Shown piece by piece: positions 9,119-64,000 of a stretch of 64,000 bases of DNA; position 1 is the first letter of the stretch, and the number at the start of each line of letters is the position of its first letter. The DNA lies in the NCBI RefSeq assembly GCF_016862935.1, contig NZ_BONX01000023.1, positions 372,001-436,000 on the forward strand, in the 5' to 3' direction. A model generated the notes under the pieces. That model did not search any database. It was not told where the DNA came from and worked only from the letters and a program-made list of their open reading frames with translations. The position numbers and the translations under genes are program-made. This stretch comes from Plantactinospora mayteni (GTDB taxonomy: Bacteria; Actinomycetota; Actinomycetes; Mycobacteriales; Micromonosporaceae).

Positions 9119-9189
9119 CGGGGGCGCCCGTCCGGGTGCCGAGTCCATGGACCGTTCTTCCTCGGCAGGGGACGAGGTGCGCCGAGTTC

Positions 9190-10803: not shown

Positions 10804-10941
10804 CGGGCCAGGATAGTGCGGGACCCTCGACCCGGGTGGGCACTCCGGCGGCGATCCTCGGTCAGACATGCGTTCGATTATGGCCAGCCCGACCGACATC
10901 CTCGGCAGCGCCTCGATCATCGGCGATGACGATCGGGAAGC

Positions 10942-10972: not shown

Positions 10973-10979
10973 CGACCGC

Positions 10980-11579
10980 ATGACCGAGCAGGAACGCTCC
11001 CCCACCGTCCCCGCCCCGGAACTCTCCCTCGCCGTCATCGTCGGCAGCGTCCGTCGACCTCGGGTCGGCCGGAAGGTCGCCGACTGGTTCGCCGAAACGG
11101 CCCGACAGCGCACGCACCTCGCCGTCGACCTCATCGACCTCGCCGAGGTCGCCCTGCCGCTGCACGGCACCCCACCCGGTGGCAACCCGAACAGTCCCAT
11201 CTCCGGCCGGCTGGCCTCGGCGGACGGCTTCGTGGTGGTGACCCCGGAATACAACCACAGCTTTCCGGCCGCGTTGAAGAACGCGATCGACTGGCACTAC
11301 CGCGAGTGGATGTTCAAGCCCGTCGCCTTCGTCTCGTACGGGCCTTCCTCCGGCGGGGTCCGGGCCGTCGAGCAGTTACGCCTGGTCTTCGCCGAGTTGT
11401 ACGCCGCCACCACCCGCAACGCGGTCGCGCTCACCGCACCCTGGAGCCTCGTCGGCCGAGACGGGACCCTCACCGTCGACGCACCCACCCGGCAGGCCGC
11501 CGACACGACCCTCGACGAGTTGACCTGGTGGGCGAGCACCCTGCGCAGCGGGCGCCTCGACAACCCCTATCCGGTGTGA
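10980..11579 (+). CDS. NADPH-dependent FMN/quinone reductase
   Basis: 199-residue flavodoxin-like protein. It has an N-terminal VIVGSVRRPRVGRKVADWF phosphate-binding loop for FMN, the signature TPEYNHSFPAALKNAIDW at about 83-100, and FVSYGPSSGG for the flavin ring. The family reduces FMN, quinones or azo compounds with NAD(P)H in the cytoplasm. A SoxR-type box in the promoter fits a role in coping with redox-cycling compounds; a SoxR-controlled homologue is known in Streptomyces. ATG 10980 starts about at the predicted transcription start. The gene converges with gatA. Confidence 0.9.
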   Translation: MTEQERSPTVPAPELSLAVIVGSVRRPRVGRKVADWFAETARQRTHLAVDLIDLAEVALPLHGTPPGGNPNSPISGRLASADGFVVVTPEYNHSFPAALKNAIDWHYREWMFKPVAFVSYGPSSGGVRAVEQLRLVFAELYAATTRNAVALTAPWSLVGRDGTLTVDAPTRQAADTTLDELTWWASTLRSGRLDNPYPV

Positions 11580-22070: not shown

Positions 22071-22130
22071 GGCGGCCATCTTTCCCGAGTCGTTCCGGCG
22101 CCGCCACCCGCCCGCTCGGCCGGCTCAGGC

Positions 22131-39808: not shown

Positions 39809-39943
39809 CGGATCAGGCATCCATTGATCTAAGTTCTTGACCCCCTTCCGCCTACCCTCCTACTGTTGCCAGCAGGTTTCGTGCGCGGATCGGCCGTTGC
39901 GGAGCGGTGGTCGGTCCCACCCGCAGCGGCGCGAGGAGACACG

Positions 39944-41266: not shown

Positions 41267-41279
41267 CGGGCGGTCGCCG

Positions 41280-42242
41280 GTGACTCCGACTCCGACGGCA
41301 CCGCCGGTCGAGGCTGGGCGGGCTGCGGGCGTACCCCGGTCGCCGGCCCGGCGTCGACGGCGCCGGATCGGCCGGTTCACCCCGCGCGACATCGCGGTGA
41401 TCGGGCTGCTGCTCGGCCTGCCGCTGCTGCTCGACCTGGGGTTGATCTGGGGTCCGGCCCTAGCCTCGATCGGGCTGTCGTTCACCTCGTGGGACGGGCT
41501 GGGCGAGATCCGGCCGGTCGGGCTGGACAACTACGTCAACATCGTCAGCAACTACCCGCCGTTCTGGCCGGCGGTCTGGCACAACCTGCTCTGGCTCGCC
41601 TTCCTCGGCCTGGTCGCCACCCCGTTCGGGCTCTTCCTGGCGGTGCTGCTGGACCGGGAGATGCGGTTCACCCGCTTCTACCAGACCGCGTTCTATCTGC
41701 CGGTGGTGCTCTCGCTGGCGGTGGTCGGCTTCCTCGCCCAGCTCATCTTCTCCCGCGACTACGGCGTGGCGAACGCGATCCTGGGCCGGACCGACAACCC
41801 GGTCGACTGGCTCGGCGACCCGTCGATCAACCTCTGGTCGGTGCTGCTGCTGGTCGGCTGGCGGCACGTCGGGTACGTCATGCTGCTCTACCTGGCCGGG
41901 CTGAAGGCCGTCGACCCGGTGCTGAAGGAGGCGGCGGCGATCGACGGGGCGAACGAGGCGCAGACCTTCTTCCGGGTGGTCTTCCCGACGCTCCGCCCGG
42001 TCAACGTGATCGTGCTGGTGATCACCGTCATCGAGGCGCTGCGCGCGTTCGACGTCGTCTACGCGATCAACCGGGGACGCAACGGTCTGGAACTGCTCTC
42101 GGTGCTGGTCACCGACAACATCGTCGGGGAGGCCAGCCGGATCGGGTACGGGTCGGCGATCGCGGTGATCCTGCTGCTGATCTCCACCGGCTTCATCGCG
42201 GTCTATCTGGTGCAGGTCTTCCGGCGGGAGGACGAGGCATGA
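41280..42242 (+). CDS. sugar ABC transporter permease (MalF type)
   Basis: 320 residues, six transmembrane helices after a basic 35-residue tail. The EAA loop is EAAAIDGANEAQTFFRVVFP, which contacts the ATPase. It begins at GTG 41280, 13 bases after the binding protein. Its stop overlaps the next permease start (ATGA). Cargo is presumably the same sugar the lipoprotein binds, identity unknown. Confidence 0.94.
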   Translation: MTPTPTAPPVEAGRAAGVPRSPARRRRRRIGRFTPRDIAVIGLLLGLPLLLDLGLIWGPALASIGLSFTSWDGLGEIRPVGLDNYVNIVSNYPPFWPAVWHNLLWLAFLGLVATPFGLFLAVLLDREMRFTRFYQTAFYLPVVLSLAVVGFLAQLIFSRDYGVANAILGRTDNPVDWLGDPSINLWSVLLLVGWRHVGYVMLLYLAGLKAVDPVLKEAAAIDGANEAQTFFRVVFPTLRPVNVIVLVITVIEALRAFDVVYAINRGRNGLELLSVLVTDNIVGEASRIGYGSAIAVILLLISTGFIAVYLVQVFRREDEA

Positions 42243-50030: not shown

Positions 50031-50858
50031 TCACGACCCGCGCGCGTACCGCTCGGCGAGGTCGACGGTACGGCGGGCCGATGCCACCATCGCGCGGTCG
50101 GCGAACCGGCCGTCCGGGAGTACCACCGTGCCGGTGTCGCGGGTCTGTGCCTCGGCGACCGCGTCGAGCAGTTCCCGGGCCTGGGACACCTCTTCGGCCG
50201 AGGGCCGGAACGCCGCCACGATCACGGGTAGCTGCCGGGGGTGGATCGCGGTCCGGCCGAGGAAGCCCATTCGGCGGCCGGCCGCGCAGGATTCGGCGAG
50301 CCCGGACAGGTCGGTGACGTTGGGGTAGACCGGCAGCAGCGGCGGGGGCAGGGCGGCGGCGCGGGCGGCGACGACGATCCGGCCGCGTACCCAGGCAAGG
50401 CCCTCCTCGGCGGTCACGCCGAGGTCGGAGCGGAGGTCCGCCTCGCCGAGCCCGATCGAGGCGACCGCCGGATCGGCGCCGGCGATCTCGTACGCCCGCT
50501 CCACCCCGACCGCCGACTCGACCAGTGGATGCAGCGGTACCGGCACCCGTGCGGCGACCGCCCGTACCGACCTCGGGGACTCCACTTTGGGCAGCCGCAG
50601 CCCGGCCAGCCCCGGTGCCCCGGCCAGGGCGTCGAGGTCGGCGGCCACGTCCGGCCCGGTCAGCTCGTTCACCCGGACGAAGACCGGCACCCGACGAGTC
50701 TCCGCGACGAACTCGGCGGCGGCGCCCCGGGCGTACCCCTTGCGGGTCGCCGCCACCGCGTCTTCCAGGTCGAGGATCACCGCGTCCGCGCCGGAGTCGA
50801 CCGCCTTGCCGAACCGGTCCGGCCGGTCACCGGGCACGTAGAGCAGGGTCAGCAGCAT
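50031..50858 (-). CDS. HpcH/HpaI aldolase-citrate lyase family (CitE-like) lyase
   Basis: 275 residues of the CitE/malyl-CoA lyase superfamily: LLYVPGDRPDRFGKAVDSGA, VILDLEDAVA (Mg-binding acids), VFVRVNELTG with the substrate Arg, RLPKVESPRSV and IGLGEADLRSDLGV. It cleaves or forms a malyl- or citramalyl-CoA-like thioester. ATG 50858 shares a base with the CoA-transferase stop (TGATG), so the two are coupled; together they look like a module that activates an acid to its CoA ester and cleaves it. Last gene of the long operon. Confidence 0.87.
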   Translation of the reverse strand: MLLTLLYVPGDRPDRFGKAVDSGADAVILDLEDAVAATRKGYARGAAAEFVAETRRVPVFVRVNELTGPDVAADLDALAGAPGLAGLRLPKVESPRSVRAVAARVPVPLHPLVESAVGVERAYEIAGADPAVASIGLGEADLRSDLGVTAEEGLAWVRGRIVVAARAAALPPPLLPVYPNVTDLSGLAESCAAGRRMGFLGRTAIHPRQLPVIVAAFRPSAEEVSQARELLDAVAEAQTRDTGTVVLPDGRFADRAMVASARRTVDLAERYARGS

Positions 50859-52090
50859 CAGATCGCTCCCGCCGCCCGCAACTCGGCGATCTCCTCCGCG
50901 GTCAAGCCGAGAGCCGTCAGCACCTCGTCGGTGTCCTGGCCGTGTGCCCGGCCGGTGTGCCGGATCTGCCCCGGGGTCGCCGACATCCGGAACGGCACGT
51001 TCTGCATCCGTACCGGCCCGAGGTCGGGATCCGGCACCGAGACCGCCGTGCCGAGCGCGGTGTACTGGGGGTCGGCCAGGATGTCGCGTACGTCGTAGAT
51101 CGGCGCGACCGCCGCCTGCGCCTCCTCGAACGCGGCCACCACCTCGTCGGAGTCCCGAGCCGCCACCCAGGCGCCGACGGCGGCGTCCAGTACGTCCGCG
51201 TGCGCGGCCCGACCGCTGCCGGTGCCGAACCACGGCTCGTCGATCAGTTCGGGGCGGCCGACCAGCCGCAGCACCCGTTCGGCGATGCTCTGCGCACTGG
51301 TCGAGACCGCCACCCAGCGCCCGTCCGCACACCGGTACGTGTTCCGGGGCGCGTTGTTGTTCGACCGGTTGCCGAGCCGGGGCTGGACATAGCCGAGCTG
51401 GTCGTACCAGGTGATCTGCGGGCCGAGCATCGCCATGATCGGCTCGATGATCGCCAGGTCGACCACCTGCCCGGTGCCGGTGACGTCCCGGGCCCGCAGC
51501 GCCAGCATCACCGCATAGGCGGTGGCGAGCGCGGTCACCGAGTCGGCCAGCCCGAACGGCGGCAGCGTCGGCGGGCCGTCCGGCTCACCGGTCGCGGCGG
51601 CGAATCCACTCATCGCCTCGGCGAGGGTGCCGAACCCGGGCCGCCGGGCGTACGGGCCGAGCTGGCCGAAGCCGCTGATCCGGGCGATCACCAGCCGGGG
51701 GTTGACCTCGTGCAGCTCGGCCGGCCCGATCCCCCAGCGCTCCAGGGTGCCGGGTCGGAAGTTCTCCACCAGTACGTCGGCGTCGGCGACCAGCCGGCGC
51801 AGCAGGTCGGCGCCGGCCGGGTCGGAGAGGTTGGCGGTGACGGTCCGCTTGTTGCGGCCGAGCACCTTCCACCAGAGCCCGACCCCGTCCTTCGCCGGCC
51901 CGTGTCCTCGGGACGGGTCCGGCTTGGCCGGATGCTCCACCTTGACCACCTCGGCCCCGAAGTCGCCGAGGAACGCGGTGGCGAGCGGGCCGGCGAACAG
52001 CGTCGCCAGCTCCACCACCTTCACTCCGGCCAACGCGGCCGGAGCAGAACCCTCGCTCAGCGCGGCCGGAGCAGAATCGGAGGTCGTCAC
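50858..52090 (-). CDS. CaiB/BaiF-type CoA-transferase
   Basis: 410 residues of the class III CoA-transferase family: VKVVELATLFAGPLATAFLG, DFGAEVVKVEHPAKPDPSRG, the catalytic Asp region FRPGTLERWGIGPAEL and LVIARISGFGQLGPYARRPG with DGRWVAVSTSA. It moves CoA between carboxylic acids. GTG 52090 follows AGGAGG and overlaps the esterase stop (GTGA). Its product may feed the CitE-like lyase downstream. Substrate unknown. Confidence 0.9.
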   Translation of the reverse strand: MTTSDSAPAALSEGSAPAALAGVKVVELATLFAGPLATAFLGDFGAEVVKVEHPAKPDPSRGHGPAKDGVGLWWKVLGRNKRTVTANLSDPAGADLLRRLVADADVLVENFRPGTLERWGIGPAELHEVNPRLVIARISGFGQLGPYARRPGFGTLAEAMSGFAAATGEPDGPPTLPPFGLADSVTALATAYAVMLALRARDVTGTGQVVDLAIIEPIMAMLGPQITWYDQLGYVQPRLGNRSNNNAPRNTYRCADGRWVAVSTSAQSIAERVLRLVGRPELIDEPWFGTGSGRAAHADVLDAAVGAWVAARDSDEVVAAFEEAQAAVAPIYDVRDILADPQYTALGTAVSVPDPDLGPVRMQNVPFRMSATPGQIRHTGRAHGQDTDEVLTALGLTAEEIAELRAAGAI

Positions 52091-54258
52091 GGCAGTCCTC
52101 CTGTCGGGTCGACCGACGCCACGAAGACGTCGCCGTTGCCGAGCGCGCCGCCGCCGGCCGGACTGCCGATGGTCAAGCCGCTGACCAGCAGTTTCCCGTC
52201 CTCGGCCCGGGTAGCGTAGACGTTCTCCTCGCCGAAGGCGTCCACCGCGTCGTCCCGGGCGGTGCCGTACTGCGCCGCCAACACCTGCTTGCCGCGCCGG
52301 TCCAGCCGCAGGGTCAGCACGTCTGCCGCGCCGGCCGGTACGCCCAGGGCGCTGCCGGTGAATCCGACCACCGCCACCTCGCCGCCGGGCAGCGCCAGCA
52401 CCTCGGCGCCGGCGTCATCGCCCGCCCCGCCGCTGACGGTCCGCCACCGCTGCCGGCCGGTTCCGTCGTACGCCACGGTCAGCGCGTCGGTGCCGCCGGC
52501 CGTGGCGTCCCCGCCGGTACTGCCGGTGGCGACCACGGTGCCGGCGGTGGTGATGGCGAGGCCGGTCAGCAGGTCGTCGCCGGCGCCGCCCTCGGCTGCG
52601 GTCCACTGCCGGGTGCCGTCCGGGGTGAACCGGGCCAGCCAGCCGTCGACGCCACCCAGGTGTGTGCTGCCGGGCATCCCGGCCGAGGTACTGCCGGCGA
52701 GGTAGACGCCCGAGGCGTCGGCCGCGACCGCGTACGCCTTGTCCTCGCCGGGACCGCCGAACTGGCGACTCCAGCCGACCTGGCCGTCCGGGCCGATCCG
52801 GACCAGGATCGCGTCCTTGTCCCCGGCGCTGGTGCCGGCGTACGCCCCGCTGGTGTAGCCGGCGACATACGCGCCGCCGTCCGGGGCGGGTGCGATGGCG
52901 TAGAACCGGTCCGCCTTGCTCGGGTCGCCGAGCTGGGTCAGCCAGGCCCGCTCCCCGGTGCCGGTCAGCTTCGCCACGAACCCGTCGTCGGCCGGGCTGC
53001 CCGGGTGCGCCCCGTCCAGGTCGCCCCGGGTGTAGCCGGCGGCCAGCACCCCACCGTCGGCGACCGGTACGACACCGTAGAGCCGCTCGTTCGCCGGGGT
53101 GCCGAACTGTACCGTCCACTGTGGCGTACGCAGGTCCGGGCCGAGCCGGGTGAGTACGGCGTCGAGCCCGCCCGCGTACGGCTGGCCGGCGACCGGGCCG
53201 GAGGCGGCGTACCCGATGGTGGCGCCGCCGTCCGGGTCCGCCGCGATGCCACCGGCCCAGTCGGTCCCGGCGGTTCCGTGCAGCGGTCGGGGCAGCCCGG
53301 CCGGCGGGGTGACACTCAGCGTCGGGGCGAGCTGTCGCATGCCGTCCACGAAGGATGGTCGCCAGACGTCCCAGTCGTGGCCGCCGTCCACCACCCGGAA
53401 CTGCGCCGAGACCGCCTCGGAGCGCCGGACGGTGTTGTAGAGCGTGGCGGCCTCGTAGTCGAGGTCGTGTGCCGCGTCCGCCGGATCCGGGTTCGCCCAC
53501 TCGTCGTCGCCGACCGCCACGAACAGCCGGACCGGCAGCTCGGGGTCGAGGGCCGGCAGCAGGGCCGGATAGTTCAGCCGGCCGTAGACGTCGGCGGAGA
53601 ACCGTTCGTCGCCGGCGCCGAAGCCGCCGTACTCCCGGGCCGACGAGTCGGCCGGCGGCAGCGGGCGGTAGACCGCCGGGCTGAGTACCAGCGCGTTGGC
53701 GAAGAGGTCCTGGTGGGCCAGCGCGTAGCGGAGCGCGCCGGCCCCGCCCATCGAATAGCCGCCGACCAACCGGGCGCCCCGATGCGCCGCCGTCCGGTAG
53801 GTCGCGTCCACATAGGAGACCAGGTCGCGGGTGAGCGCCGTCTCGACCGGCCGGCCCGGGTCGTCCGCCCCGGTGTAGCCGGAGTCGACGTACCAGCTTC
53901 CCCGGCCGCTCCACGGCGCGTCCGGGAGTACCGCGATCACCGGCGGCACCTCGCCGTCGGCGATCATCCGGTCCAGGTCGGCCTTGACCCGGGTCCACGC
54001 CGACATCGTGTCGCCGCGCCCGTGCAGCAGGTAGAGCACCGGATAGCGGACGGTGGCGTTGCGCCGGTCGGCGTAGCCGTACGGCAGGTAGACGGTGTAG
54101 TCGATCGGCGAGCCGAGCGCCGCCGACGGCGCGCTCGCCGTGCTCAGGGTGCCGGCCCGGTCCCGGCCCGCCACGGCCCCGCCGGGTACCGCGCCGACCA
54201 GGCCGACCGAGAGCAGCAGTACCCCGGCCGCACCGCCGAGCCGCCAGAATCTCCTCAT
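52087..54258 (-). CDS. secreted esterase (antigen-85/XynZ type) with beta-propeller repeats
   Basis: 723 residues. Sec signal peptide (MRRFWRL, hydrophobic core, AVAG). Residues 50-310 are an esterase-D/antigen-85-like domain with Ser169 in GGYSMGGAG and His294 in DGGHDWDVW. Residues 330-720 carry repeated YxAGYT-SG / AVAADASGVYLAGST pieces (SBBP-type repeats) that should form a beta-propeller. It probably removes acyl groups from a polymeric or glycosidic substrate outside the cell. ATG 54258 follows GGAGGAAGG. Its stop overlaps the CoA-transferase start. Confidence 0.86.
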   Translation of the reverse strand: MRRFWRLGGAAGVLLLSVGLVGAVPGGAVAGRDRAGTLSTASAPSAALGSPIDYTVYLPYGYADRRNATVRYPVLYLLHGRGDTMSAWTRVKADLDRMIADGEVPPVIAVLPDAPWSGRGSWYVDSGYTGADDPGRPVETALTRDLVSYVDATYRTAAHRGARLVGGYSMGGAGALRYALAHQDLFANALVLSPAVYRPLPPADSSAREYGGFGAGDERFSADVYGRLNYPALLPALDPELPVRLFVAVGDDEWANPDPADAAHDLDYEAATLYNTVRRSEAVSAQFRVVDGGHDWDVWRPSFVDGMRQLAPTLSVTPPAGLPRPLHGTAGTDWAGGIAADPDGGATIGYAASGPVAGQPYAGGLDAVLTRLGPDLRTPQWTVQFGTPANERLYGVVPVADGGVLAAGYTRGDLDGAHPGSPADDGFVAKLTGTGERAWLTQLGDPSKADRFYAIAPAPDGGAYVAGYTSGAYAGTSAGDKDAILVRIGPDGQVGWSRQFGGPGEDKAYAVAADASGVYLAGSTSAGMPGSTHLGGVDGWLARFTPDGTRQWTAAEGGAGDDLLTGLAITTAGTVVATGSTGGDATAGGTDALTVAYDGTGRQRWRTVSGGAGDDAGAEVLALPGGEVAVVGFTGSALGVPAGAADVLTLRLDRRGKQVLAAQYGTARDDAVDAFGEENVYATRAEDGKLLVSGLTIGSPAGGGALGNGDVFVASVDPTGGLP

Positions 54259-54288
54259 CGAGTTCCTTCCTCCCAGGTGCACTACGGG

Positions 54289-56241
54289 CTACAGGTCGAC
54301 CGCGCAGCGGAAGCCGATCGACTCCGAGCGGGTCAGTCCGGCGCCGAGGGTCAACAGCTTCACCGAGACCTCCGGCGGCTGCGGGCCGCCGTCGAGATAC
54401 CAGTCCGAGCCGTCGGCCCGGTACGCCGCGCCGCCCTTGAGGATCACGAACCGGGTACGCCCGTCGGTGTGCTCGCTCTCGGTCAGGTTCCAGTTCAGTA
54501 GCTCGGCCCGGCGCAACAGTCCCAGTTCGGCGGCGACCTGCCACTCGTCCTCGGTCGGCAGCCGCAATCCGGCCCAGGCCGCGTACGCCCGGGCGTCGGC
54601 CAGCTCGACGTGGGTGGCCGGCGCCTCGGCCGGGCCCGACATTCCGCCGTCCGCCCACGGCCAGCGCTCCGGCCGGATCGGGCGGTAGCCGGTGGCCCGG
54701 ACGAACTCGGCGTACTCGGCGACGCTCACCTCGCGCTCGGCGATGCCGAACCGTCCGAGGTGGACGGTCCGGTGCAGGGTCACCGGCTGGTGCAACCGGG
54801 GCGGCAGCGGCTTCCACTCGTCGACGTACGGCGCCTCGCCGTAGAGCCCGGTCTCGCGCTGCCGGTGTCGGACCAGCAGCTCCCGCCGCCCGCCGTCGAC
54901 CGCCCGCATGCCCGCCGGAAGGTGACCGGAGCGCACCACCGGCGCCGGGCGGCGGACCGCCGAGCGGGCCGGGAAGTTCGGGTCACCGTCGGCGGGGGCG
55001 TACCGGGGCAGGGTCAGCTCCTCGGCCGTGGCGAGCACGGCGGCGATCCCACCGGCGGGCAGTGCCCCGCCGATCGCCACCCGACCGGGGCCGGCCGGGG
55101 TGGCGGTCAGCTCGGTGCCGGTGGTCAGCTCGTACCAGTGCTGGCCGGGGTGCTCCTCGGTGACCAGCCACGGCCCGTCGTACGCCCCGCCCCGGTTGAC
55201 GACCGTCCACAACGGAGTCTTGTCGTGCTGCCAGCGCGAGGCGTACACCTCGGTCCCGGCCACGTGGTCGGCGAGCGGGGTCCAGTCCTCGGCGCGCAGC
55301 CAGGCCGGATGGCTCCGCTGCACCCGGCGCATCGCCGCCAGTACCGCCCGGTCCCGCTCGTTCCAGCCGACCCAGACCCCGAAGACGCTCTCCCAGACCA
55401 GCACCCCGACCCCGTTCAGCCAGGCCGAGTGCAGCTCGTCGAGGTGGCTGCGGTGCCAGCGCCGGGTGTGGTGCAACACGTGCCGCCGCTCGAACCACTT
55501 GGCCCGGAGCACCCCCGGCACCGGCGAGTCGGCGAACCACTGCGCCCAGGACATCGCGTGGTCGGCGATCCGGGCCAACGGCACCCGGGACTCCCCCTCC
55601 AGCACGATGCCCGGCCGGGCCGCGTCCAGGGTCTTCCGCAGTTCGCCCGCGCCCTCCTTGAGGGTGTCCAGGAACACCCCGTCCACACCGAGCCAGCCGA
55701 CGAGCGCGGCCACCTCGTCCGCGTCGGGGCGCTGGGCCCGGCGGGTACCGACGTCCCACGGGTTGTAGTCGATGAACACCCGTACGCCACGCGCCTGGAA
55801 CGTCCGCACCACCTCGGGCAGCTCCGGTACCTGCCGGTAGTAGTCGAACTGGTTGCGATCGTCCAACCCGATCACCGGGTACGCGTGCCAGAGCACCACC
55901 CCGTCGAAGCCGCCGAAGTCGCGTTCCGCCGCGTCCAGGAAGGCGTCGACGGTGAAGACGCCCCGTTCGGCGTCGTAGAGCGACTCGTCCCAGAGCCAGG
56001 CCAGGCAGACGGTGAAGCAGTCCCCGGCGATCTCGGCGTAGTGGCTGCCGTCGTAGCCGAGCCGGGCCCGCGCCTCGATCCGCCAGCGGGTCAGCCGGTC
56101 CCGCCAGGCCGGCCAGTCCGCCGGGTCGTCCGGGGCGGCGAAGATCTTCGCCTCGTCCAGCTCCGACAGGTCGGCACCGGCCGTCAGCGGCACGGCCGTG
56201 GGCAGGTCGATCGGCCTCGGGACGTAGGGGTTGAACGTCAT
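54289..56241 (-). CDS. TIM-barrel-like protein with C-terminal SUMF1-fold domain
   Basis: 650 residues. The N-terminal 400 look like a glycoside-hydrolase-type TIM barrel: GFDGVVLWHAYPVIGLDDRNQF, RVFIDYNPWDVGTRR, GVDGVFLDTLKEGAGELRK and IVLEGESRV, with acids that could be catalytic. The last 180 residues match the SUMF1/FGE fold (VSVAEYAEFVRATGYRPI, GLRLPTEDEWQVAAELGLLR, final SIGFRCAVDL). The CxxxxC catalytic pair of true formylglycine-generating enzymes is missing, so it is probably a non-FGE member. Stop of the ribokinase gene overlaps its ATG 56241 (ATGA). Substrate unknown. Confidence 0.75.
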   Translation of the reverse strand: MTFNPYVPRPIDLPTAVPLTAGADLSELDEAKIFAAPDDPADWPAWRDRLTRWRIEARARLGYDGSHYAEIAGDCFTVCLAWLWDESLYDAERGVFTVDAFLDAAERDFGGFDGVVLWHAYPVIGLDDRNQFDYYRQVPELPEVVRTFQARGVRVFIDYNPWDVGTRRAQRPDADEVAALVGWLGVDGVFLDTLKEGAGELRKTLDAARPGIVLEGESRVPLARIADHAMSWAQWFADSPVPGVLRAKWFERRHVLHHTRRWHRSHLDELHSAWLNGVGVLVWESVFGVWVGWNERDRAVLAAMRRVQRSHPAWLRAEDWTPLADHVAGTEVYASRWQHDKTPLWTVVNRGGAYDGPWLVTEEHPGQHWYELTTGTELTATPAGPGRVAIGGALPAGGIAAVLATAEELTLPRYAPADGDPNFPARSAVRRPAPVVRSGHLPAGMRAVDGGRRELLVRHRQRETGLYGEAPYVDEWKPLPPRLHQPVTLHRTVHLGRFGIAEREVSVAEYAEFVRATGYRPIRPERWPWADGGMSGPAEAPATHVELADARAYAAWAGLRLPTEDEWQVAAELGLLRRAELLNWNLTESEHTDGRTRFVILKGGAAYRADGSDWYLDGGPQPPEVSVKLLTLGAGLTRSESIGFRCAVDL

Positions 56242-57230
56242 GCCGGCTCCGGGTAGCTCTGTGCGTAGAGGGCGTCGATCTCGTCCCGGGTGGGCAGCGC
56301 GGTGGAGGCGCCGGGGCGTTGCGCACAGGCGGCGCCCGCCGCGCAGGCCCAGCGCAGCGCCGCCGTCACCGCCGCCGGCTCGACCGGCCCGCGCCGCTCC
56401 GCCCAGGCCACCGCCAGCGCGCCGGTGAACGCGTCCCCGGCAGCGGTGGTGTCCACCGCGTCGACCGTCGGCGCCTCGACCGTCAGCCGCAGGCCGAACC
56501 GGTCGGCGTAACACGCGCCCCGGGCGCCCAGGGTCAGCACCACCCGGGGGACCAGGCGCAGCAGGGCGTCCAGCAGGGCGTCGAGCCCGGTCTCGGCGGC
56601 GAGACCGGCCACCATCGCCGCCTCGACCTGGTTGACCACCAGCACGTCCACCGCGTCGAGCAGCTCCGCCGGCAACTGCCGGGCCGGCGCGGCGTTCAAC
56701 ACCACCGTGGTACCGGCGTTCCGGCCCCATCCGGCGGCCTGGGTCACCGCCGGCAGCGGCACCTCCAGCTGGCACAGCAGCACGTCCGCTGCCGCCACGG
56801 CGGCCCGGTCGTCCGCGTCCAGGCTGGTCAGCTCGGCGTTGGCGCCCGGCGCCACCACGATCAGGTTCTCGGCGTCGGCGTCCACCGCGATCAGCGCCAC
56901 CCCGGACGGACCCGGCACGGTACGCAGCCGTCGCAGCTCCACCCCCGCCTCCGCCAGGTTGGCCCGGAGCTGGTCGGCGAAGCCGTCCTGCCCGACGGCG
57001 CCGACGAAGTCGCACCTGGCCCCGGCCCTGGCCGCCGCCACCGCCTGGTTGGCGCCCTTGCCGCCGGGAATGGTCCGCAGCGCGTCGCCGAGCACCGTCT
57101 CGCCGGGCCGGGGCAGCGTCGGCGTCGACACCACCAGGTCCAGGTTGGCGCTGCCGACCACCACCACCCGGACCTCGCCGGACCCGCCCGGGCCGGCGGT
57201 GGGTTCGGCCTTCGGCTCCTCGCCTGTCAT
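56238..57230 (-). CDS. PfkB-family sugar kinase, ribokinase type
   Basis: 330 residues: VVVVGSANLDLVV and [20 protein letters not shown] (substrate-binding GGKGAN), VVAPGANAELT, VVLTLGARGA and the catalytic DTTAAGDAFTGALA. The GGKGAN and AAGD motifs fit ribokinase or a purine-ribose kinase more than fructokinase. It would phosphorylate the pentose released by the neighbouring ADP-ribosylglycohydrolase-type enzymes. ATG 57230, 58 bases after the first of these. Confidence 0.92.
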   Translation of the reverse strand: MTGEEPKAEPTAGPGGSGEVRVVVVGSANLDLVVSTPTLPRPGETVLGDALRTIPGGKGANQAVAAARAGARCDFVGAVGQDGFADQLRANLAEAGVELRRLRTVPGPSGVALIAVDADAENLIVVAPGANAELTSLDADDRAAVAAADVLLCQLEVPLPAVTQAAGWGRNAGTTVVLNAAPARQLPAELLDAVDVLVVNQVEAAMVAGLAAETGLDALLDALLRLVPRVVLTLGARGACYADRFGLRLTVEAPTVDAVDTTAAGDAFTGALAVAWAERRGPVEPAAVTAALRWACAAGAACAQRPGASTALPTRDEIDALYAQSYPEPA

Positions 57231-57288
57231 GCCGACGCACCTTCCGCTCGCGGCTGCGAGGCCCGCAGCACCGGCCCACTCCGCGCGC

Positions 57289-58725
57289 TCACGATTCCGC
57301 CCCGACGGCCGCACCACGGTCCGGCACAGGTCCGGCCGCAGTCCCCGGCACCTGAGCGGTCCCCGAGACCTGGGTCCGGGCCAGCCGCCCGGTCCGCTCG
57401 GCCAGCGCGGCGAACTCGACACCGTCGAAGCCGGCGATGCTGCTGCGCAGCCGGCCGCGCAGCGGTCCGGTCCACTCGGCCGGCAGTCCGGCGGCACCGG
57501 TCAACGCCCCGGTCACCGAGCCGACCGTCGCCCCGGTCGAGTCGGTGTCCCAGCCGCCGCTGACCACCGCGCAGATCGACCGGACCAGGTCGCCCCGGCC
57601 GTACGCCAGGGCCGCCGCGACCAGGGCGGCGTTGTTGCGTACGTGCACCCAGTGCAGGTGGCCGTGCCGGGCGTAAAGGGTGTCGAGCACCGACTCCCAG
57701 TCGGTCGAGCCGGTCGCCGCCTCGGCACCGAGGGCCCGGGCCTCGCGTACCGTCGCCGCGAAGCGGCTCTGCGGCGGCAACACCGACTCGCCCGCGTCGA
57801 GCACACTGTCTACATCGGACGTCACCACGGCGGCCGAGGTCATCGCCGCCACCCAGAGCGCCCCGTGCACCCCGCCCCGGACGTGGCTGACGATCGCGTC
57901 CCGGTGGGCCAGTTCGGCCGCCAGGTCCGGCCGGCCGGGGTGCACCCAGCCGTACACGTCGGTGCGGATCTGGGCACCGATCCACTCCCGGAACGGGTTG
58001 TGCCGCAGCGCGGTCTCCGGTGGGGTCAGCCCGAGCAGCAGGTTCCGGTACGCCACCCGCTCGGCGGTGAAGACCCGTCCGCCGGGCAGCCAGTCCAGCC
58101 ACGCCTGGGCCACCTCGGCACTGCTGAACTCCCGGCCGTACGTCTCCAGCACCCGCAACGCCAGCAGCGCGAAGTTGAGGTCGTCGTCCTCCGGCATCCC
58201 GTCGATGTTCTCGGCCAGGCTGGTCGGCGCGCTGCGCCGGTTCCACGGCCAGCGGGCCGCCACCTCGGCCGGCAACCCGACCCCGGTGAAGTAGCCGGCC
58301 AGCGGCCACCGCCCGGTGGCGGTCAGGATCTCCCGGATGCCCTGCCGGGGAATCTTCTCCACCGGCTTGCCCAGCAGGCAGCCGACCGCCCGGCCCAGCC
58401 AGCCGCCGTGCACCCGGTCCGGCTCCGGCGCCCCGGTCGGCAGCCCGTACTCCGTCGGCCAGCTCGCCCGGATCGCGGCCAGTTCGGTCGGCTCGGCCGC
58501 CGATCCGGCCGGTGGCAGCGCGTCGCACTCGTCGAGCAGTTCCGCCGCCAGCGCCCGCAACTCCGGGCCGGCGGGCTCGGCCGACGCCCCGCTGACCGGC
58601 GGCAGCACGGACCCGCCGGCCGCCGCCCAGCGCCGCGCGACCGCCGAGACGTCCCGCCCCTCGTCGGCGCTGGCCGCCAGCTCGTGCGGCAGCAGATCCT
58701 CCGGCTGTACCCAGGTCAGTCTCAT
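57289..58725 (-). CDS. ADP-ribosylglycohydrolase-family protein, divergent metal site
   Basis: 478 residues, longer than usual, with an extra N-terminal domain of 100 residues. The family core begins at RVHGGWLGRAVGCLLGKPVEK. The usual TDDT metal motif is replaced by EDDDL at 179-183, and the late motif GWDTDSTGATVGS keeps Asp393-Asp395-Ser396-Thr397. It should still bind two Mg ions, but the reaction is probably not protein de-ADP-ribosylation. ATG 58725 overlaps the neighbouring family member's stop (ATGA). Confidence 0.85.
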   Translation of the reverse strand: MRLTWVQPEDLLPHELAASADEGRDVSAVARRWAAAGGSVLPPVSGASAEPAGPELRALAAELLDECDALPPAGSAAEPTELAAIRASWPTEYGLPTGAPEPDRVHGGWLGRAVGCLLGKPVEKIPRQGIREILTATGRWPLAGYFTGVGLPAEVAARWPWNRRSAPTSLAENIDGMPEDDDLNFALLALRVLETYGREFSSAEVAQAWLDWLPGGRVFTAERVAYRNLLLGLTPPETALRHNPFREWIGAQIRTDVYGWVHPGRPDLAAELAHRDAIVSHVRGGVHGALWVAAMTSAAVVTSDVDSVLDAGESVLPPQSRFAATVREARALGAEAATGSTDWESVLDTLYARHGHLHWVHVRNNAALVAAALAYGRGDLVRSICAVVSGGWDTDSTGATVGSVTGALTGAAGLPAEWTGPLRGRLRSSIAGFDGVEFAALAERTGRLARTQVSGTAQVPGTAAGPVPDRGAAVGAES

Positions 58726-59855
58726 GACAGTCCGGCAAACCGCTCGGCGCGCCGGGCGAACCGCTCCCGGTCCCGCGCGAAGACCTCCGCCGCCACCTCG
58801 GCAAGCTCCCGGGCCGGCGCCACCAGGTCGGTCCGGGACGCCTCGGCTACCGTCGCCGACCACTCGGCCGGGACCGCCGCCGCGCCACCGAGCGCCCCGG
58901 CGATCGCCCCGGCCATCGTCGCGGTCGAGTCGGCGTCCCGGCCGTAGTTGACCGCGCCGAGCACCGCCTCGTGGAAGTCCCCCCGGGCCACCACGAGCAT
59001 GCCGAGCGCCACCGGCAACTCCTCGATCGAGTGCAGCCGGCTGGGCCGCCGCGCCCCCAGGCCCGGGTTGCGGTACTCCTCGCCCACCGTGTCGTACGGG
59101 GCGACCGCGGCGCGCAGCGGTGCGATGGCGTCGCGCCAGTCGGCGTACCCCTCGGCCTCCTTGACCACGGCGGCGATCGCCGCCCGGGTGCCGTCCCTGG
59201 CCAGGTCGAGTACGGCGGTCAGCACGTCGGCCACGCCCGCGCCGGGCGACATCGCCGCCGCCACCGCCGCGGCGAGCACCGCCGCCGCCTCCCGGCCGTA
59301 GCTGTGCTGGTGCGCCCCGGCGATCTCGACCGCCTCGGCGTACGCGCCCGCCGGGTCGCCCGCGTTCACGATCCCCACCGGGGCCATGTACATCGCCGCA
59401 CCACAGTTGACGATGTTGCCGACACCGCCCTCCCTCGGGTCGGCGTGCCCGTGGTGCAGGCGGGTGACCAGCCACCGCTCGGCGGCGGCGAGGCGGTGGA
59501 AGGTCACCCCCTCCCGCTCCAGGTCCGGGATGTAGACCACCCGCTCGAGCAGGTCGGGCACGAGCAGTTCCACCACGTCGTACGCGTCGAGATGGTCACG
59601 CTTCCTCCCGTACGCCCGCACCAGCGCGTGGGTCATCAACGTGTCGTCGGTGATGTGCCCGTCGCCCTTGTGGTACGGCGCCAGTGGCCGCGCGGTGGCC
59701 CAGTCGGCGTGGAACGGCGGTGCGACCCCCCGCACCCAGTCGCCGTAACGGGCCCGGATCTGCTCGGGCAGCGCCGTTTCGGTGGCTCCGCCGAGGGCAT
59801 CACCCACGGCGGCACCGACCAGGCAGCCGACCGACTTGTCGAGCAAGTGTTCCAT
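58722..59855 (-). CDS. ADP-ribosylglycohydrolase-family protein, canonical metal site
   Basis: 377 residues with GAAVGDALGGATE, ITDDTLM (Thr69-Asp70-Asp71-Thr72) and NYGRDADSTATMAGAIAGALG (Asp307, Asp309, Ser310, Thr311), the complete DraG-type di-metal site. ATG 59855 follows GAGGTAATC and lies 2 bases after the binding-protein stop. Lying between an ABC importer and a ribokinase, it is best read as a catabolic N- or O-riboside hydrolase rather than a protein-modification enzyme (inference). Confidence 0.88.
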   Translation of the reverse strand: MEHLLDKSVGCLVGAAVGDALGGATETALPEQIRARYGDWVRGVAPPFHADWATARPLAPYHKGDGHITDDTLMTHALVRAYGRKRDHLDAYDVVELLVPDLLERVVYIPDLEREGVTFHRLAAAERWLVTRLHHGHADPREGGVGNIVNCGAAMYMAPVGIVNAGDPAGAYAEAVEIAGAHQHSYGREAAAVLAAAVAAAMSPGAGVADVLTAVLDLARDGTRAAIAAVVKEAEGYADWRDAIAPLRAAVAPYDTVGEEYRNPGLGARRPSRLHSIEELPVALGMLVVARGDFHEAVLGAVNYGRDADSTATMAGAIAGALGGAAAVPAEWSATVAEASRTDLVAPARELAEVAAEVFARDRERFARRAERFAGLS

Positions 59856-59857
59856 GA

Positions 59858-61165
59858 TTACCTCAGGACCTGCTTCCCACCGTCGACGAGCTGGGTACCG
59901 AGCTGGTCGAGCGTGATCTTGTTGGCGAAGTACTGCTGGAGGGCCGGGGTGGCGTACTTCAGCTTCCACTCCGGGTAGCCGTCGACCATCTGGAACGGCG
60001 CCACCGTCAGGTCCTTGGCGCTGTCCGCCGCGACGTCCCAGCCCTGCTTGCCGCCGGTCGTCTTGACCAGCTCCTCGTTCGCCTGCTTACCGGTCGGGAC
60101 CAGCCAGTCGCCCTTGGCCAGCGCGGCCATGTTGGTCGGGTTGAGGAAGTACTCCAGGAACTGCGCCGCCTGCTTCTGGTGCGCGGAGTCGGCCGCGACC
60201 GAGAGGGTCTGCGGGTTGGCGGCCTGGTTGGTGGAGACGCCCTTCACCGGCGGGATGGTCACCCACTCGAAGCCGGCCGGCGCCTGCTCGACCATCTGCT
60301 GGCGCAGCGAGACCGAGCCGGGAATCATCGCGTACTTGCCGGCGAAGAAGCCGGGCAGGGTGTCGGCGCCGCTCATTCCCAGCGCCTCCGGCGAGGCGGT
60401 CTTGCTGGTGTAGAGCATGTCGTGGATCCGCCTCGGCACCTCCTTCTCGGCGTCCCCGATCCGCACCTCGGTCTTGCCGCCGTCGGTGTAGAAGTACTTG
60501 CCGTCGAAGTTGAGCGCCAGGTTCAGTACCCGGTTGGTCGGCGACTTCAGCGCCCAGGCCACGCCGTACTTGCCGGGGCCGGTCAGCTTCTGCGCGTTGG
60601 CCTGGAACTCGTCCCAGGTCCAGCCGCCGTCGGCCGGCGGCACGGCCACGCCGGCCGCGTCCAGCAGCTTCTTGTTGGCGATCACGACCTGCGACTCCAG
60701 CAGGAACGGCACGCCGGTGACCTTGCCGTCGAAGGTCGCGGTGTCCCAGATCCCCTTGTCGATCTGGCCCTTGAAACCGTCGGAGAGCAGGCCGGAGAGG
60801 TCCGCCAGGTAGCCCTGCTTGCTGAACTCGCCGATCGACGCCGCCTCGTAGTGCACGATGTCCGGCGCGTCACCACCCTCGAAGGCGGTCAGCAACTGGT
60901 CGTGTACGGAGTTCCAGTCGCCCTGGACGTACTCGACCTGGATGTCCGGGTGTTCGGCGTTCCACTTGGCCACCAGGTCCTTGTTGGCCTGGAGCGACTC
61001 CTTCTGCCAGGCCAGGCTGAGGAACCGCAGCTTGACCGGGCCGGAACCCTCGTCGTCTCCGCTTCCGCCGCCGCACGCGGCGAGCGCGCCGAGTCCGACG
61101 ACACCGGCCAGCGCGGCGGCGACGACCCGCCGGGAAACTCTTCGTCGGGAAACTCTGTCGAGCAC
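59858..61165 (-). CDS. sugar ABC transporter substrate-binding lipoprotein
   Basis: 435 residues. A basic signal (RRRVSRR) and lipobox LAAC mark a lipoprotein; the mature part has a CUT1 fold: QGDWNSVHDQLLTAFEGGDAPDIVHYEA, then GVPFLLESQVVIANKKLLDA and TWDEFQANAQKLTG. GTG 61165 follows AGGAGG. It starts 29 bases downstream of the MalG-type permease and ends 2 bases before a DraG-type gene. Its cargo is expected to be the substrate of the downstream enzymes. Confidence 0.93.
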   Translation of the reverse strand: MLDRVSRRRVSRRVVAAALAGVVGLGALAACGGGSGDDEGSGPVKLRFLSLAWQKESLQANKDLVAKWNAEHPDIQVEYVQGDWNSVHDQLLTAFEGGDAPDIVHYEAASIGEFSKQGYLADLSGLLSDGFKGQIDKGIWDTATFDGKVTGVPFLLESQVVIANKKLLDAAGVAVPPADGGWTWDEFQANAQKLTGPGKYGVAWALKSPTNRVLNLALNFDGKYFYTDGGKTEVRIGDAEKEVPRRIHDMLYTSKTASPEALGMSGADTLPGFFAGKYAMIPGSVSLRQQMVEQAPAGFEWVTIPPVKGVSTNQAANPQTLSVAADSAHQKQAAQFLEYFLNPTNMAALAKGDWLVPTGKQANEELVKTTGGKQGWDVAADSAKDLTVAPFQMVDGYPEWKLKYATPALQQYFANKITLDQLGTQLVDGGKQVLR

Positions 61166-61194
61166 GGGTGCTACCTCCTGTGGTGGTTGTGTGG

Positions 61195-62127
61195 CTATCC
61201 CTTGACAGCTCCGGCGAGCGACCCGGAGGCCAGCCGGCGCTGCATGACGGCGAAGAAGACCAGGCTCGGGATGGTGGCCAGCAGCGAGCCGGCGGCCAGC
61301 GGCCCGAGCCGGGCGGTGCCCTCGATCCCGACGAACCGGGCCAGCGCGACCGGCAGGGTCGCCAGCTCCGGAGTCTTGATCAGCACCAGGGCGAAGAAGA
61401 ACTCGTTCCAGGCGGAGATGAACGCGAACAGCGCGGTGGCGACCAGGCCGGGGGTCAACAACGGGAAGATCACCCGGCGCAGCGTCTGGAGCCGGTTCGC
61501 CCCGTCGACCGAGGCCGCCTCCTCCAGCTCGCGCGGGATGTTGCGGACGAATCCCTGGAGCATCCAGAGCGCGAACGGCAGCGCCCAGACCACGTAGATC
61601 AGCACCAGCCCGGCGTGCGTGTTGGCCAGCCCGGCCTGCCGGAGTACGAGGAAGATCGGGATGATCAGCAGCACGAACGGGAAGAGCTGGGAGAGGAGTA
61701 CCCAGCCCAGCGCGACCGTGCCCAGCCGGGTCTTGAACCGCGCCAGCGCGTACGACGCCGGGGTCGCGATCAGCACGGTGAGCAGTGCCGAGGCGAGCGA
61801 CACCTGGATGCTGTTCCAGGCCGCCCGACCGAGTTCCTGCTCGGTGAACGCCTGCACGAAGTTGCTCAGCGTCGGGCTCTCAGGTATCAGCGTCGGATGC
61901 AGCTGCACCAGCTCGCGCGGTGGCTTGAACGAGGTGGAGAGCAGCCACACCAGCGGGAACGCCAGGAAGACCAGGTACCCCGAGAGGGCCAGGTATTGCA
62001 GTCCCCGGCCGACCCGCCGGCGGCGCCTCGGCTTCGCCCGGCCGGCTCCAGCGGTCGCGGTGCCGGGCTTTCCCGGCCCGGTGCCGGGCCCGGTGGTCGG
62101 GCCGGTCGACGTCGTGTTCCGGGCCAT
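61195..62127 (-). CDS. sugar ABC transporter permease (MalG type)
   Basis: 310 residues with six transmembrane helices after a basic Gly/Pro-rich tail. EAA loop EEAASVDGANRLQTLRRVIF and C-terminal QRRLASGSLAGAVKG. ATG 62127 is 2 bases after the partner permease stop. No ATPase gene is nearby, as with the other importer in this window. Confidence 0.94.
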   Translation of the reverse strand: MARNTTSTGPTTGPGTGPGKPGTATAGAGRAKPRRRRRVGRGLQYLALSGYLVFLAFPLVWLLSTSFKPPRELVQLHPTLIPESPTLSNFVQAFTEQELGRAAWNSIQVSLASALLTVLIATPASYALARFKTRLGTVALGWVLLSQLFPFVLLIIPIFLVLRQAGLANTHAGLVLIYVVWALPFALWMLQGFVRNIPRELEEAASVDGANRLQTLRRVIFPLLTPGLVATALFAFISAWNEFFFALVLIKTPELATLPVALARFVGIEGTARLGPLAAGSLLATIPSLVFFAVMQRRLASGSLAGAVKG

Positions 62128-62129
62128 CG

Positions 62130-63065
62130 TCAGTTCGCCTCCCGTAGCCGGCGACGGAGGTACACCGCGAGCAATGCCACGACGATCACCACCATCACGT
62201 TGCCGAGCGCCGCCGCGTAGCCGTAGTTGCCGTACCGGAACGCCTCCTCGTAGGCGAAGAGCATCGGCAGCATGGTGCGACCGCCCGGCCCACCAGCGGT
62301 GAGCACGTAGACCAGGCCGAACGAGTTGAAGTTCCAGATGAAGTCCAGCGAGGTGATCGCCACGATCACCGGCATCAGCGAGGGCAGGGTCACGTTGCGG
62401 AACCGCTGCCACGCGCTGGCCCCGTCCATCGCCGCCGCCTCGTGCAGCTCGCGCGGCACCCCCTGCAACCCCGCCAGGAGTACGACGGTGGTCTGCGGCA
62501 TGCCGGCCCAGACCCCGACGATGATCACCGCTGGCAGGGCGGTGTTGAAGTCGCCGAGCCAGGTGGTACGGAGCCCGTCCGCCCCGATCCGGTAGAGAAA
62601 CTCGTTGAGCAGGCCGGCGTCCGGGTGGTAGACCAGCCGCCAGAGGATGCCGACCACCACCGGTGGCATCGCCCAGGGCACCACGGCGAGCACCCGGGCC
62701 ACGCCCCGGAACCGCAGCCGCTGGTCGAGCAGCAGGGCCAGCCCGAGGGCGAGCAGGAACTGGAGCACCGTCACCGCGAACGCCCAGAGCAGGCCGATCC
62801 GGAACGAACTCCAGAACAGGCTGTCGCCGAGCAGTTCCCGGTAGTTCGCCAGGCCGGTGAAGCTGACCTCGACGTTCCGGCCGGCCCGGGCGTCGGTGAA
62901 GCCGAGGTAGATGCCGCGCAGCAGCGGGAACACCGACAGCACCAGCACGGGCAGCAGGGACGGGAGCAGCAGCAGGTAGACGGTGGTCCGGTCAGAACGG
63001 CGACGCCGGGAGCGGTTGCCCGGCCCGGTCCGGTCGACGTCGGGCCGCTCGGCCAGCGTGGTCAC
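62130..63065 (-). CDS. sugar ABC transporter permease (MalF type)
   Basis: 311 residues, six transmembrane helices, EAA loop HEAAAMDGASAWQRFRNVTL. GTG 63065 overlaps the stop of the LacI regulator (GTGA), so repressor and transporter are translated together. It pairs with the MalG-type permease that follows. Confidence 0.94.
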   Translation of the reverse strand: MTTLAERPDVDRTGPGNRSRRRRSDRTTVYLLLLPSLLPVLVLSVFPLLRGIYLGFTDARAGRNVEVSFTGLANYRELLGDSLFWSSFRIGLLWAFAVTVLQFLLALGLALLLDQRLRFRGVARVLAVVPWAMPPVVVGILWRLVYHPDAGLLNEFLYRIGADGLRTTWLGDFNTALPAVIIVGVWAGMPQTTVVLLAGLQGVPRELHEAAAMDGASAWQRFRNVTLPSLMPVIVAITSLDFIWNFNSFGLVYVLTAGGPGGRTMLPMLFAYEEAFRYGNYGYAAALGNVMVVIVVALLAVYLRRRLREAN

Positions 63066-64000
63066 GAGGTCACCCCCACGGTGCCGTCGGCCGGAGCCGC
63101 CCGGCCCCCGGGTCGGGTGGCCCCGCCGCTCGACGGTCGCCGGCTCGACGGCGTACCGCCGGGGGTCGGGCGGCCGACGGTGCTGGAGGCGCGTACCACC
63201 AGGCTCGGCGCGACGTGTTCGCGCCGGGGCGGCAGGTCGGGGTCGGCGATCCGCTCCAGCAGGAGTTCGGCCGCCCGCCGTCCCCGGGCCGCGGAGCCGA
63301 GCGAGACGCTGGAGAGCTGCGGAAAGGCCATCTGGGCCAGCTCGGTGTCGTCCATGCCGACCAGCGCCACGTCCTCGGGTACCCGGCGGCGCTCGGTGAG
63401 CAGCGCGTGCAGGGCGCCGACCGCGATCAGGTCGTTGGCGCAGAGCAGCGCGTCGGGCTCAGCCCGGGCGAAGAGCCGGGCGGCGGCGTCCCGGCCGGCG
63501 GCGTACTGGAAGTCGCCGACCTCGATCAGCCGCTCGTCGACCGGGATGCCGTGGCTGGCCAGCGCGGCGCGGAAGCCGGCGTCCCGGGCCGCCCCCGGCA
63601 CCGTGTCCAGCGGGCCGTTGACGAGGCCGATCCGCTGCCGGCCGGCCGCGACCAGGTGGTCGACGGCGAGCGCCACGCCGGCCCGGGAGTCGGTCCGGAC
63701 GTTGTCGACCGGCGCGTCGTCGGGCAACTGTCCGACCACGACGACCGGGATCGGGCTGACCACGATCGCGTCGAGGTGACGGTCGGTGATCCGGATCGGG
63801 GACATGATCATGCCGTCCACGTACCGGTTGGCCAGCCGGCGCAGCAGGTCGGTCTCGCTCTCGATCTCGCCGCCGGTGGCGTGTACCAGGAGTTGCCGGC
63901 CCGAGGAGGTGACGACGGCCTCGATGGCCCGCATCATCGCCACGTAGACCGGGTTGCCGATGTCGGCGACGGCGAGCGCGACCAGGCCGGTGCGCTGGGA
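63062..64000 (-). CDS. LacI-family repressor, N-terminus outside the window
   Basis: 312 residues are visible. The frame is open to the right edge, so the helix-turn-helix lies outside. The ligand-binding domain is clear: TGLVALAVADIGNPVYVAMMRA, RYVDGMIMSPIRITDRHL, GVALAVDHLVAAGRQRIGLV, PDALLCANDLIAVGALHALL and MDDTELAQMAFPQLSSVSL. The last 45 residues are a Pro/Gly/Ser-rich tail. It is the first visible gene of the operon and should repress it until a sugar-like ligand binds. Confidence 0.92.
   Translation of the reverse strand, partial: SQRTGLVALAVADIGNPVYVAMMRAIEAVVTSSGRQLLVHATGGEIESETDLLRRLANRYVDGMIMSPIRITDRHLDAIVVSPIPVVVVGQLPDDAPVDNVRTDSRAGVALAVDHLVAAGRQRIGLVNGPLDTVPGAARDAGFRAALASHGIPVDERLIEVGDFQYAAGRDAAARLFARAEPDALLCANDLIAVGALHALLTERRRVPEDVALVGMDDTELAQMAFPQLSSVSLGSAARGRRAAELLLERIADPDLPPRREHVAPSLVVRASSTVGRPTPGGTPSSRRPSSGGATRPGGRAAPADGTVGVTS

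Follow-up and report, generated by a model that had tools for sequence, protein, structure and literature searches.

What are two proteins of a family best known for taking ADP-ribose off proteins doing in an operon with a sugar importer and a ribokinase-like kinase? The question is raised by one end of a 64,000-nucleotide stretch of the Plantactinospora mayteni genome (contig NZ_BONX01000023.1, C23 below, positions 372,001 to 436,000; the whole stretch is called the window), where eleven leftward genes run on the minus strand from position 50031 to past position 64000. An earlier note on this DNA had read them as a pathway in which a ribosylated compound is taken up and hydrolyzed, its ribose phosphorylated and its acid part possibly degraded through coenzyme A (CoA). 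Our analysis partly supports that interpretation. The genes are a sugar-conjugate catabolic operon of a known kind with an unusual enzyme family, the DraG-type ADP-ribosylglycohydrolases, at its centre. We see an about even chance that the operon serves the LacI-controlled catabolism of an imported ribofuranose conjugate (an acylated ribofuranoside), in which the ribose would become ribose 5-phosphate and a 3-hydroxy-diacid would be split as its CoA ester. The sequence shows one conserved unit with a local operator, catalytic-type residues and predicted folds; ribose itself, the order of the steps and the identity of the acid we infer. The genes are listed here from the regulator leftwards.

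63062 to 64000, minus strand: LacI-family regulator (NCBIfam), 3' part; the 5' end lies past the window
62130 to 63065, minus strand: MalF-type sugar ABC permease (PF00528)
61195 to 62127, minus strand: MalG-type sugar ABC permease (PF00528)
59858 to 61165, minus strand: solute-binding protein (SBP_bac_1, PF01547), a lipoprotein as judged by eye
58722 to 59855, minus strand: DraG1, ADP_ribosyl_GH (PF03747), with E26, TDDT (69-72) and GRDADS (305-310) conserved
57289 to 58725, minus strand: DraG2, ADP_ribosyl_GH (PF03747), with E123, PEDDDLN (178-184) and WDTDS (392-396) conserved
56238 to 57230, minus strand: PfkB kinase, near-ribokinase (TIGR02152, 272.8 bits; best Protein Data Bank (PDB) match a ribokinase)
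54289 to 56241, minus strand: TIM-barrel glycosidase-like domain (barrel without Pfam family), beta-sandwich and SUMF1/FGE-fold domain, called TIM/SUMF1
52087 to 54258, minus strand: esterase (PF00756) with SBBP propeller repeats, optional, with an N-terminal stretch taken by eye for a signal peptide
50858 to 52090, minus strand: CoA-transferase family III (PF02515), with D183
50031 to 50858, minus strand: CitE-like acyl-CoA lyase (PF03328), with R62, E114 and D141

All eleven open reading frames (ORFs) named earlier are present, and their families were recovered with Pfam for ten proteins and with NCBIfam for LacI; the list needs amending in that the LacI gene is not wholly inside the window and the esterase is an optional member. 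The spacing also holds as described, from 4-base overlaps up to 58-base gaps. Leftwards, LacI/MalF, DraG1/DraG2, PfkB/TIM-SUMF1 and esterase/CoA-transferase each overlap by 4 bases and CoA-transferase/CitE by 1, and the gaps are 2 bases (MalF/MalG), 29 (MalG/binding protein), 2 (binding protein/DraG1) and 58 (DraG2/PfkB, with the PfkB ATG at 57230). TIM-SUMF1 and the esterase are separated by 30 bases with the ATG at 54258, or by 6 if the start is the GTG at 54282. The LacI ORF extends to C23:436267 with a far-upstream TTG, and the start lies near C23:436.2 kb.

The importer-DraG-kinase block, whose recurrence in other genomes the earlier note had made a test of its proposal, is conserved far beyond the genus. 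Loci were gathered over named genomes with the TIM/SUMF1 protein as query, keeping the best 80 of 154 relatives; 66 of the 80 had room on both sides of the gene and were taken as complete, and the 14 ended by contig ends were excluded from the order count. Outside the window, genes were called only roughly, by a simple script based on GC content at third codon positions; for the counts, tblastn was used. Ten genes, LacI-MalF-MalG-binding protein-DraG1-DraG2-PfkB-TIM/SUMF1-CoA-transferase-CitE, stand in identical order in 60 of the 66 complete loci. The genera with the locus include Micromonospora, Asanoa, Phytohabitans, Kribbella, Leifsonia, Agreia, Glycomyces, Amycolatopsis and Cellulosimicrobium, and the TIM/SUMF1 protein of the congeneric Plantactinospora endophytica is 92% identical to that of the window. 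Six complete loci depart from this order: the set is reduced to CitE-TIM/SUMF1, in that orientation, in L105 (Sphingomonas) and to PfkB-TIM/SUMF1 in L135 (Kribbella), it is rearranged and without PfkB in L108 (Pelagibacterium) and L109 (Devosia), and PfkB is missing from L133 and L134.

Several loci carry further genes. In L127 and L135, both from Kribbella, a gene for a FAD-dependent oxidoreductase lies downstream of PfkB and TIM/SUMF1. The Sphingomonas stretch L105 holds two TIM/SUMF1 paralogues, PfkB, a CitE-like lyase, TonB receptors and a sodium symporter, and no DraG match was found in its 22 kb. Six Kribbella loci have a DraG1-DraG2 gap of 2.4-2.7 kb; in one of them, L114, a PhoD-like ORF (6687-7847) and a secreted-looking ORF (5322-6149) stand between DraG1 and DraG2 in the opposite orientation, as judged by eye. 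An 830-residue plus-strand ORF in the same interval had no Pfam match and was taken for a shadow because of the PhoD-like ORF and the 275-residue secreted-looking ORF on the other strand. In L094 an FGGY-family kinase gene follows CitE.

These loci were all found through TIM/SUMF1, and the bias was checked in 200 genomes of the family, queried with DraG2 and TIM/SUMF1, and in 396 genomes of the phylum, queried with DraG1. Among the family genomes, DraG2 matched in 64 and TIM/SUMF1 in 53; a DraG2 threshold of at least 56% identity retained 57 genomes and dropped the 7 with weaker matches only. DraG2 lay within 2.5 kb and on the same strand in all 53 genomes with TIM/SUMF1, and occurred without it in four (L142-L145), which retain LacI, the importer, DraG1, DraG2, PfkB, CoA-transferase and CitE. 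In the phylum set, the DraG1 matches fell in the window genome and in nine genomes of one other genus. There DraG1, DraG2, CoA-transferase and CitE stand in one row in 9/9 genomes and PfkB is present in 6/9; a LacI match was not found in these nine block stretches. The genes flanking the block on both sides are common to all nine. In L158 and L162, where they were typed, they are of unrelated families: VIT1 and glutamate synthase at one edge, and at the other lgt, tryptophan synthase alpha and genes of the thioredoxin-like and PALP families. Judged from these neighbours, the other genus may be Streptomyces.

All thirteen stretches without TIM/SUMF1 contain two further DraG-like genes, one of each of two kinds (queries from L162 and L094). 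Neither TIM nor SUMF gave a match at E 1e-3 in these 13 stretches, a search that did not extend to the rest of the nine genomes. Both extra kinds occur alongside TIM/SUMF1 in 5 of the 80 loci (L094, L097, L098, L101 and L140), and L099 has one kind. Because of these blocks and the gene counts in the 80 loci, the operon core is DraG1-DraG2-CoA-transferase-CitE, usually with PfkB. TIM/SUMF1 on the one hand and the extra DraG pair on the other mostly replace each other.

The block also appears to have its own regulator. A LacI-type palindrome, GTAAACGTTTAC, overlaps the first lacI codons; 43 bp upstream of it there is another copy, which differs by one change. The start of lacI is likely the ATG just before this internal operator. 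The 9.84-Mb genome holds a single exact match to the operator core. Allowing one mismatch adds two sites, of which one is the second operator. The other, C49:7719, adjoins no evident catabolic gene in the ORF list read by eye, and a wider LacI regulon was rejected. A locus was usable if its LacI reached at least 40% identity and its upstream sequence was long enough; 57 were, while 12 were set aside because their flanks were short and 1 because its LacI identity was low. In 56 of the 57 a degenerate form of the motif stands at the start of lacI or immediately before it, L137 being the miss, and it was not found elsewhere in these 57 loci (1.18 Mb). Such a pattern is characteristic of a regulator dedicated to its own locus.

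Both DraG proteins are clear members of their family, with PF03747 scores of 164.3 bits (DraG1) and 168.4 bits (DraG2) against a gathering cut-off of 26.2. The key columns are nearly invariant: in DraG1, E26 is kept in 75/77 sequences, TDDT in 76/77 and GRDxDS in 77/77; in DraG2, E123 and DDD are kept in 77/77 and DTD in 76/77, and every shortfall is a gap. We take the glutamate and the two acidic motifs of each to be the putative catalytic and metal residues known from ARH enzymes. DraG2 has an N-terminal extension of about 100 residues, and phmmer found no match for it in the PDB; its predicted model, with a predicted local distance difference test score (pLDDT) of 91.7, has the DraG fold and matches DraG, MJ1187 and ARH3 structures. 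In alphaproteobacterial DraG2 the first motif reads AADDDTN and the second DTDC. The two proteins thus share family, motifs and predicted fold with the known DraG/ARH hydrolases, from which they differ by their catabolic context, by scores below the equivalog cut-offs (for ADP-ribosylarginine and dinitrogenase reductase hydrolases, DraG1 56.9 and DraG2 25.5 of 337.05 bits, and 54.8 and 18.9 of 490 bits) and, for DraG2, by the extension and the lack of a PDB match.

DraG-type genes were also seen in other settings. The window has a third one at 21039-22079 on the minus strand, scoring 212 bits to PF03747 and 28% identical to DraG1 and 25% to YegU. At 39866-42242 on the plus strand lie two ORFs, one of secreted appearance and one possibly for an ABC permease; judged by eye, they may represent a second sugar importer. 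In L147 and L149, relatives of DraG2 again have LacI, CUT1 permease and PfkB matches close by; in L147 a single minus-strand ORF (8017-11025) encodes a DraG domain followed by GH32 domains, and the CUT1-type permease, LacI and PfkB matches adjoin it. In L148 (6423-16371, minus strand) a DraG2-like gene lies between genes for a formylglycine-generating enzyme (FGE) protein and a sulfatase on one side and an oligopeptide-type ABC transporter on the other, followed by an Asparaginase_2 gene.

The TIM/SUMF1 protein was studied in a set of 41 sequences, the window protein and 40 from the 80 loci. Below E 0.1, FGE-sulfatase is the only Pfam match in 41/41; five other families, GH97 included, each hit a single member with E values from 0.12 to 0.77, and no Pfam family was found for the barrel in the 41 members scanned. 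In the predicted model (pLDDT 87.3), Foldseek matched alpha-amylase-like folds first, then GH129 and GH29 types, with low template modelling (TM) scores (query-normalised, 0.29-0.36 for the alpha-amylase-like and GH29 rows). D192 and E217, invariant in 41/41, follow strands 4 and 5 of a modelled (beta/alpha)8 barrel. Enzymes of clan GH-H carry an Asp after strand 4 and a Glu after strand 5, and the modelled architecture is GH-H-like. Compared with alpha-amylase-like and GH29 folds, the placement of Asp and Glu is alike, and the barrel is set apart by its low TM-scores, its lack of a Pfam family and its SUMF1 fusion. On the strength of this model, the barrel resembles a retaining glycosidase and is likely a glycoside hydrolase. 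No signal peptide was seen by eye. The formylglycine-generating enzyme has a copper-binding cysteine pair; in the SUMF1 part of the 41 sequences, just one column exceeds 30% Cys, C646 (73%). A role as sulfatase activator was rejected for want of a conserved cysteine pair, and the SUMF1 domain is probably a binding or structural one.

For the PfkB kinase, ribokinases are the best solved relatives (best E 7e-70). K58 and D266 are kept in 61/61 sequences and are presumably the GGKGANQ lysine and the catalytic Asp of ribokinases. A second ribokinase-like gene lies about 0.7 kb past lacI (C23:436937-437824; L141:2902-3837) and is 58% identical to the operon PfkB; PfkB matches are also found upstream of lacI in L086, L091 and L110.

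The last three genes encode the esterase, the CoA-transferase and the lyase. The esterase occurs in 30 of the 80 loci, among them Georgenia, Agreia, Herbiconiux and Cellulosimicrobium, and at 37% in Pelagibacterium; because it recurs in such distant lineages, it hints at an ester in the substrate. The CoA-transferase scores 405 bits against a cut-off of 23.3, and its nearest solved relatives include succinate-hydroxymethylglutarate CoA-transferase. Its D183, kept in 68/68 sequences, aligns with Asp169 of YfdW, the nucleophile of that enzyme (numbering by hand, with an assumed 21-residue tag). In the lyase, R62, E114 and D141 are kept in 75/75 and align with Arg64, Glu112 and Asp138 of Rv2498c (numbering by hand, with an assumed 8-residue tag). 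As described in PMC6689899, Rv2498c splits (S)-citramalyl-CoA and (R)-3-hydroxy-3-methylglutaryl-CoA, and these three residues lie near Mg and the substrate. Against the RipC equivalog the lyase scores 150.3 of 375 bits, far under the cut-off. The itaconate/citramalate route (Rv2498c, RipC) has the same family III CoA-transferase and lyase chemistries, with the lyase site residues kept; the present operon differs from it in having no hydratase among the eleven genes and in its link with sugar import and with genes of glycosidase type.

These elements can be arranged into a pathway. The binding protein and two permeases would import a small glycoside or glycosyl ester, from which the exported esterase, where present, would first remove an acyl group. 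Sugar residues would then be stripped stepwise within the cell by the TIM-barrel enzyme and the DraG pair, the DraG enzymes opening ribofuranosidic bonds on a small molecule, not a protein, through a two-metal ARH site. The PfkB kinase would yield ribose 5-phosphate, the family III CoA-transferase would turn the freed short 3-hydroxy-diacid (candidates being citramalate, malate, beta-methylmalate and 3-hydroxy-3-methylglutarate) into its CoA ester, and the CitE-like lyase would split that ester. What the earlier note proposed is upheld as to one unit with its own regulator that links DraG proteins, kinase and importer, with intact ARH motifs, CoA-transferase and lyase sites and a ribokinase-like kinase. 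We propose only tentatively, at a little under even chances, the more specific version: that the DraG proteins are ribofuranosidases acting on an imported, ester-bearing ribofuranoside of a 3-hydroxy-diacid, beside a new glycosidase family of TIM barrel and non-catalytic SUMF1 domain that two further DraG-type enzymes replace in other lineages, in a pathway both widespread and undescribed. The natural compound itself may be undescribed.

Several observations weigh against the ribofuranoside pathway. DraG1 is patchy across the phylum, with matches in 10 of the 396 genomes, the window genome included, and no importer match was found in the block stretches of the nine genomes of the other genus. 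The remaining ones bear on rival explanations. The sugar of the substrate glycoside could be another furanose or a rare sugar. The DraG proteins would in that case be general furanosidases, PfkB would phosphorylate that sugar and ribose would play no part; we give this perhaps one chance in a few. DraG2-like proteins are indeed fused to or near glycosidases for other sugars (a GH32 fusion in L147, GH38 and GH36 beside the gene in L151, GH127 about 4.5 kb away in L150), so DraG2 may act on a sugar other than ribose, and its family probably holds several specificities. The operon PfkB, at 272.8 bits, is 27 bits short of the TIGR02152 ribokinase cut-off (299.65), and PfkB kinases change substrate easily. 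It is also missing in 3 of the 9 other-genus blocks, in L133, L134 and L138 and in the alphaproteobacterial L104, L108 and L109; ribose as the product is therefore not compelled, and the loss could be covered by another ribokinase elsewhere in the genome, as the window genome, the sole one checked, has a second. This explanation is opposed by the ribokinases that head the solved relatives of PfkB and by the ARH site, which is known for alpha-ribofuranosyl bonds. The operon could instead join two adjoining pathways, one for a glycoside (importer to TIM/SUMF1) and one for an unrelated acid (CoA-transferase and CitE), and the Kribbella loci L127 and L135, which keep PfkB-TIM/SUMF1 without DraG, CoA-transferase or CitE, fit such a split. 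We nevertheless find it improbable: CoA-transferase and CitE are present in 64/66 and 65/66 complete loci, in 9/9 blocks of the other genus and in 4/4 TIM-less family blocks, and they accompany the alphaproteobacterial DraG pair in L104, L108 and L109, where gene order has changed. Because the two are kept in blocks with DraG even when the order changes, a functional tie to the DraG genes is suggested.

Salvage of nucleosides, nicotinamide adenine dinucleotide (NAD) or ADP-ribose would fit the ARH fold, the ribokinase-like kinase and the precedent of E. coli yegTUV with its nucleoside-type symporter. It was rejected, and we consider it quite improbable, since Pfam and NCBIfam identify among the eleven genes neither a nucleotidase, phosphatase, Nudix or deaminase family nor one that handles bases, the binding protein is of the SBP_bac_1 type with weak matches to maltose-type binders, and CoA-transferase and CitE are not known to take part in base breakdown. 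Methanopterin, bacillithiol and B12 alpha-ribazole each seem to need steps absent from the operon, and they were set aside as substrates. Protein de-ADP-ribosylation, or a toxin-antitoxin or defence locus, is suggested by the name of the PF03747 family and by weak hits in NCBIfam, to dinitrogenase-reductase hydrolase and to Tri1; it is very improbable and was also rejected. DraG1, at 56.9 of 337 and 54.8 of 490 bits, is far under the curated cut-offs, the four proteins tested had no PADLOC match, and the eleven genes include no ADP-ribosyltransferase, the importer and catabolic genes being present instead.

The combination of importer, DraG-type protein and kinase, put forward earlier as a distinct pathway, has shorter three-gene precedents, which are without CoA-transferase and lyase in the sources as far as available. 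E. coli yegTUV encodes a nucleoside-type symporter, the ADP-ribosylglycohydrolase-like YegU and the PfkB kinase YegV, a likeness in importer, DraG-type protein and kinase. YegU is 23% identical to DraG1 (E 2e-7) and the YegV-PfkB match is not significant (E 0.15), too distant for orthology. Unlike the present operon, the yegTUV neighbourhood (record NC_000913) is without CoA-transferase, lyase, TIM/SUMF1 and ABC importer. In the available part of PMC10819704, yegTUV is the single target of a local repressor and is without clear function. The staphylococcal R1 region has an ADP-ribosylglycohydrolase, a permease and a ribokinase, merely listed in the available part of PMC3637587; by that description, R1 differs from the present operon in having three genes and another permease family. 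A description of the present operon was not found in the literature searched, which included partial texts and had subscription journals and preprints mostly outside its coverage.

If the ribofuranoside pathway is true, this would suggest that many DraG/ARH proteins are small-molecule glycosidases, and the operon would offer a direct way to find their substrates. Two to four DraG proteins share a conserved operon with a sugar importer, a ribokinase-like kinase and putative genes for breaking down an acid, and the TIM/SUMF1 protein is a candidate new glycosidase family. The operon would then indicate that soil or plants commonly contain a ribose conjugate that has yet to be named.

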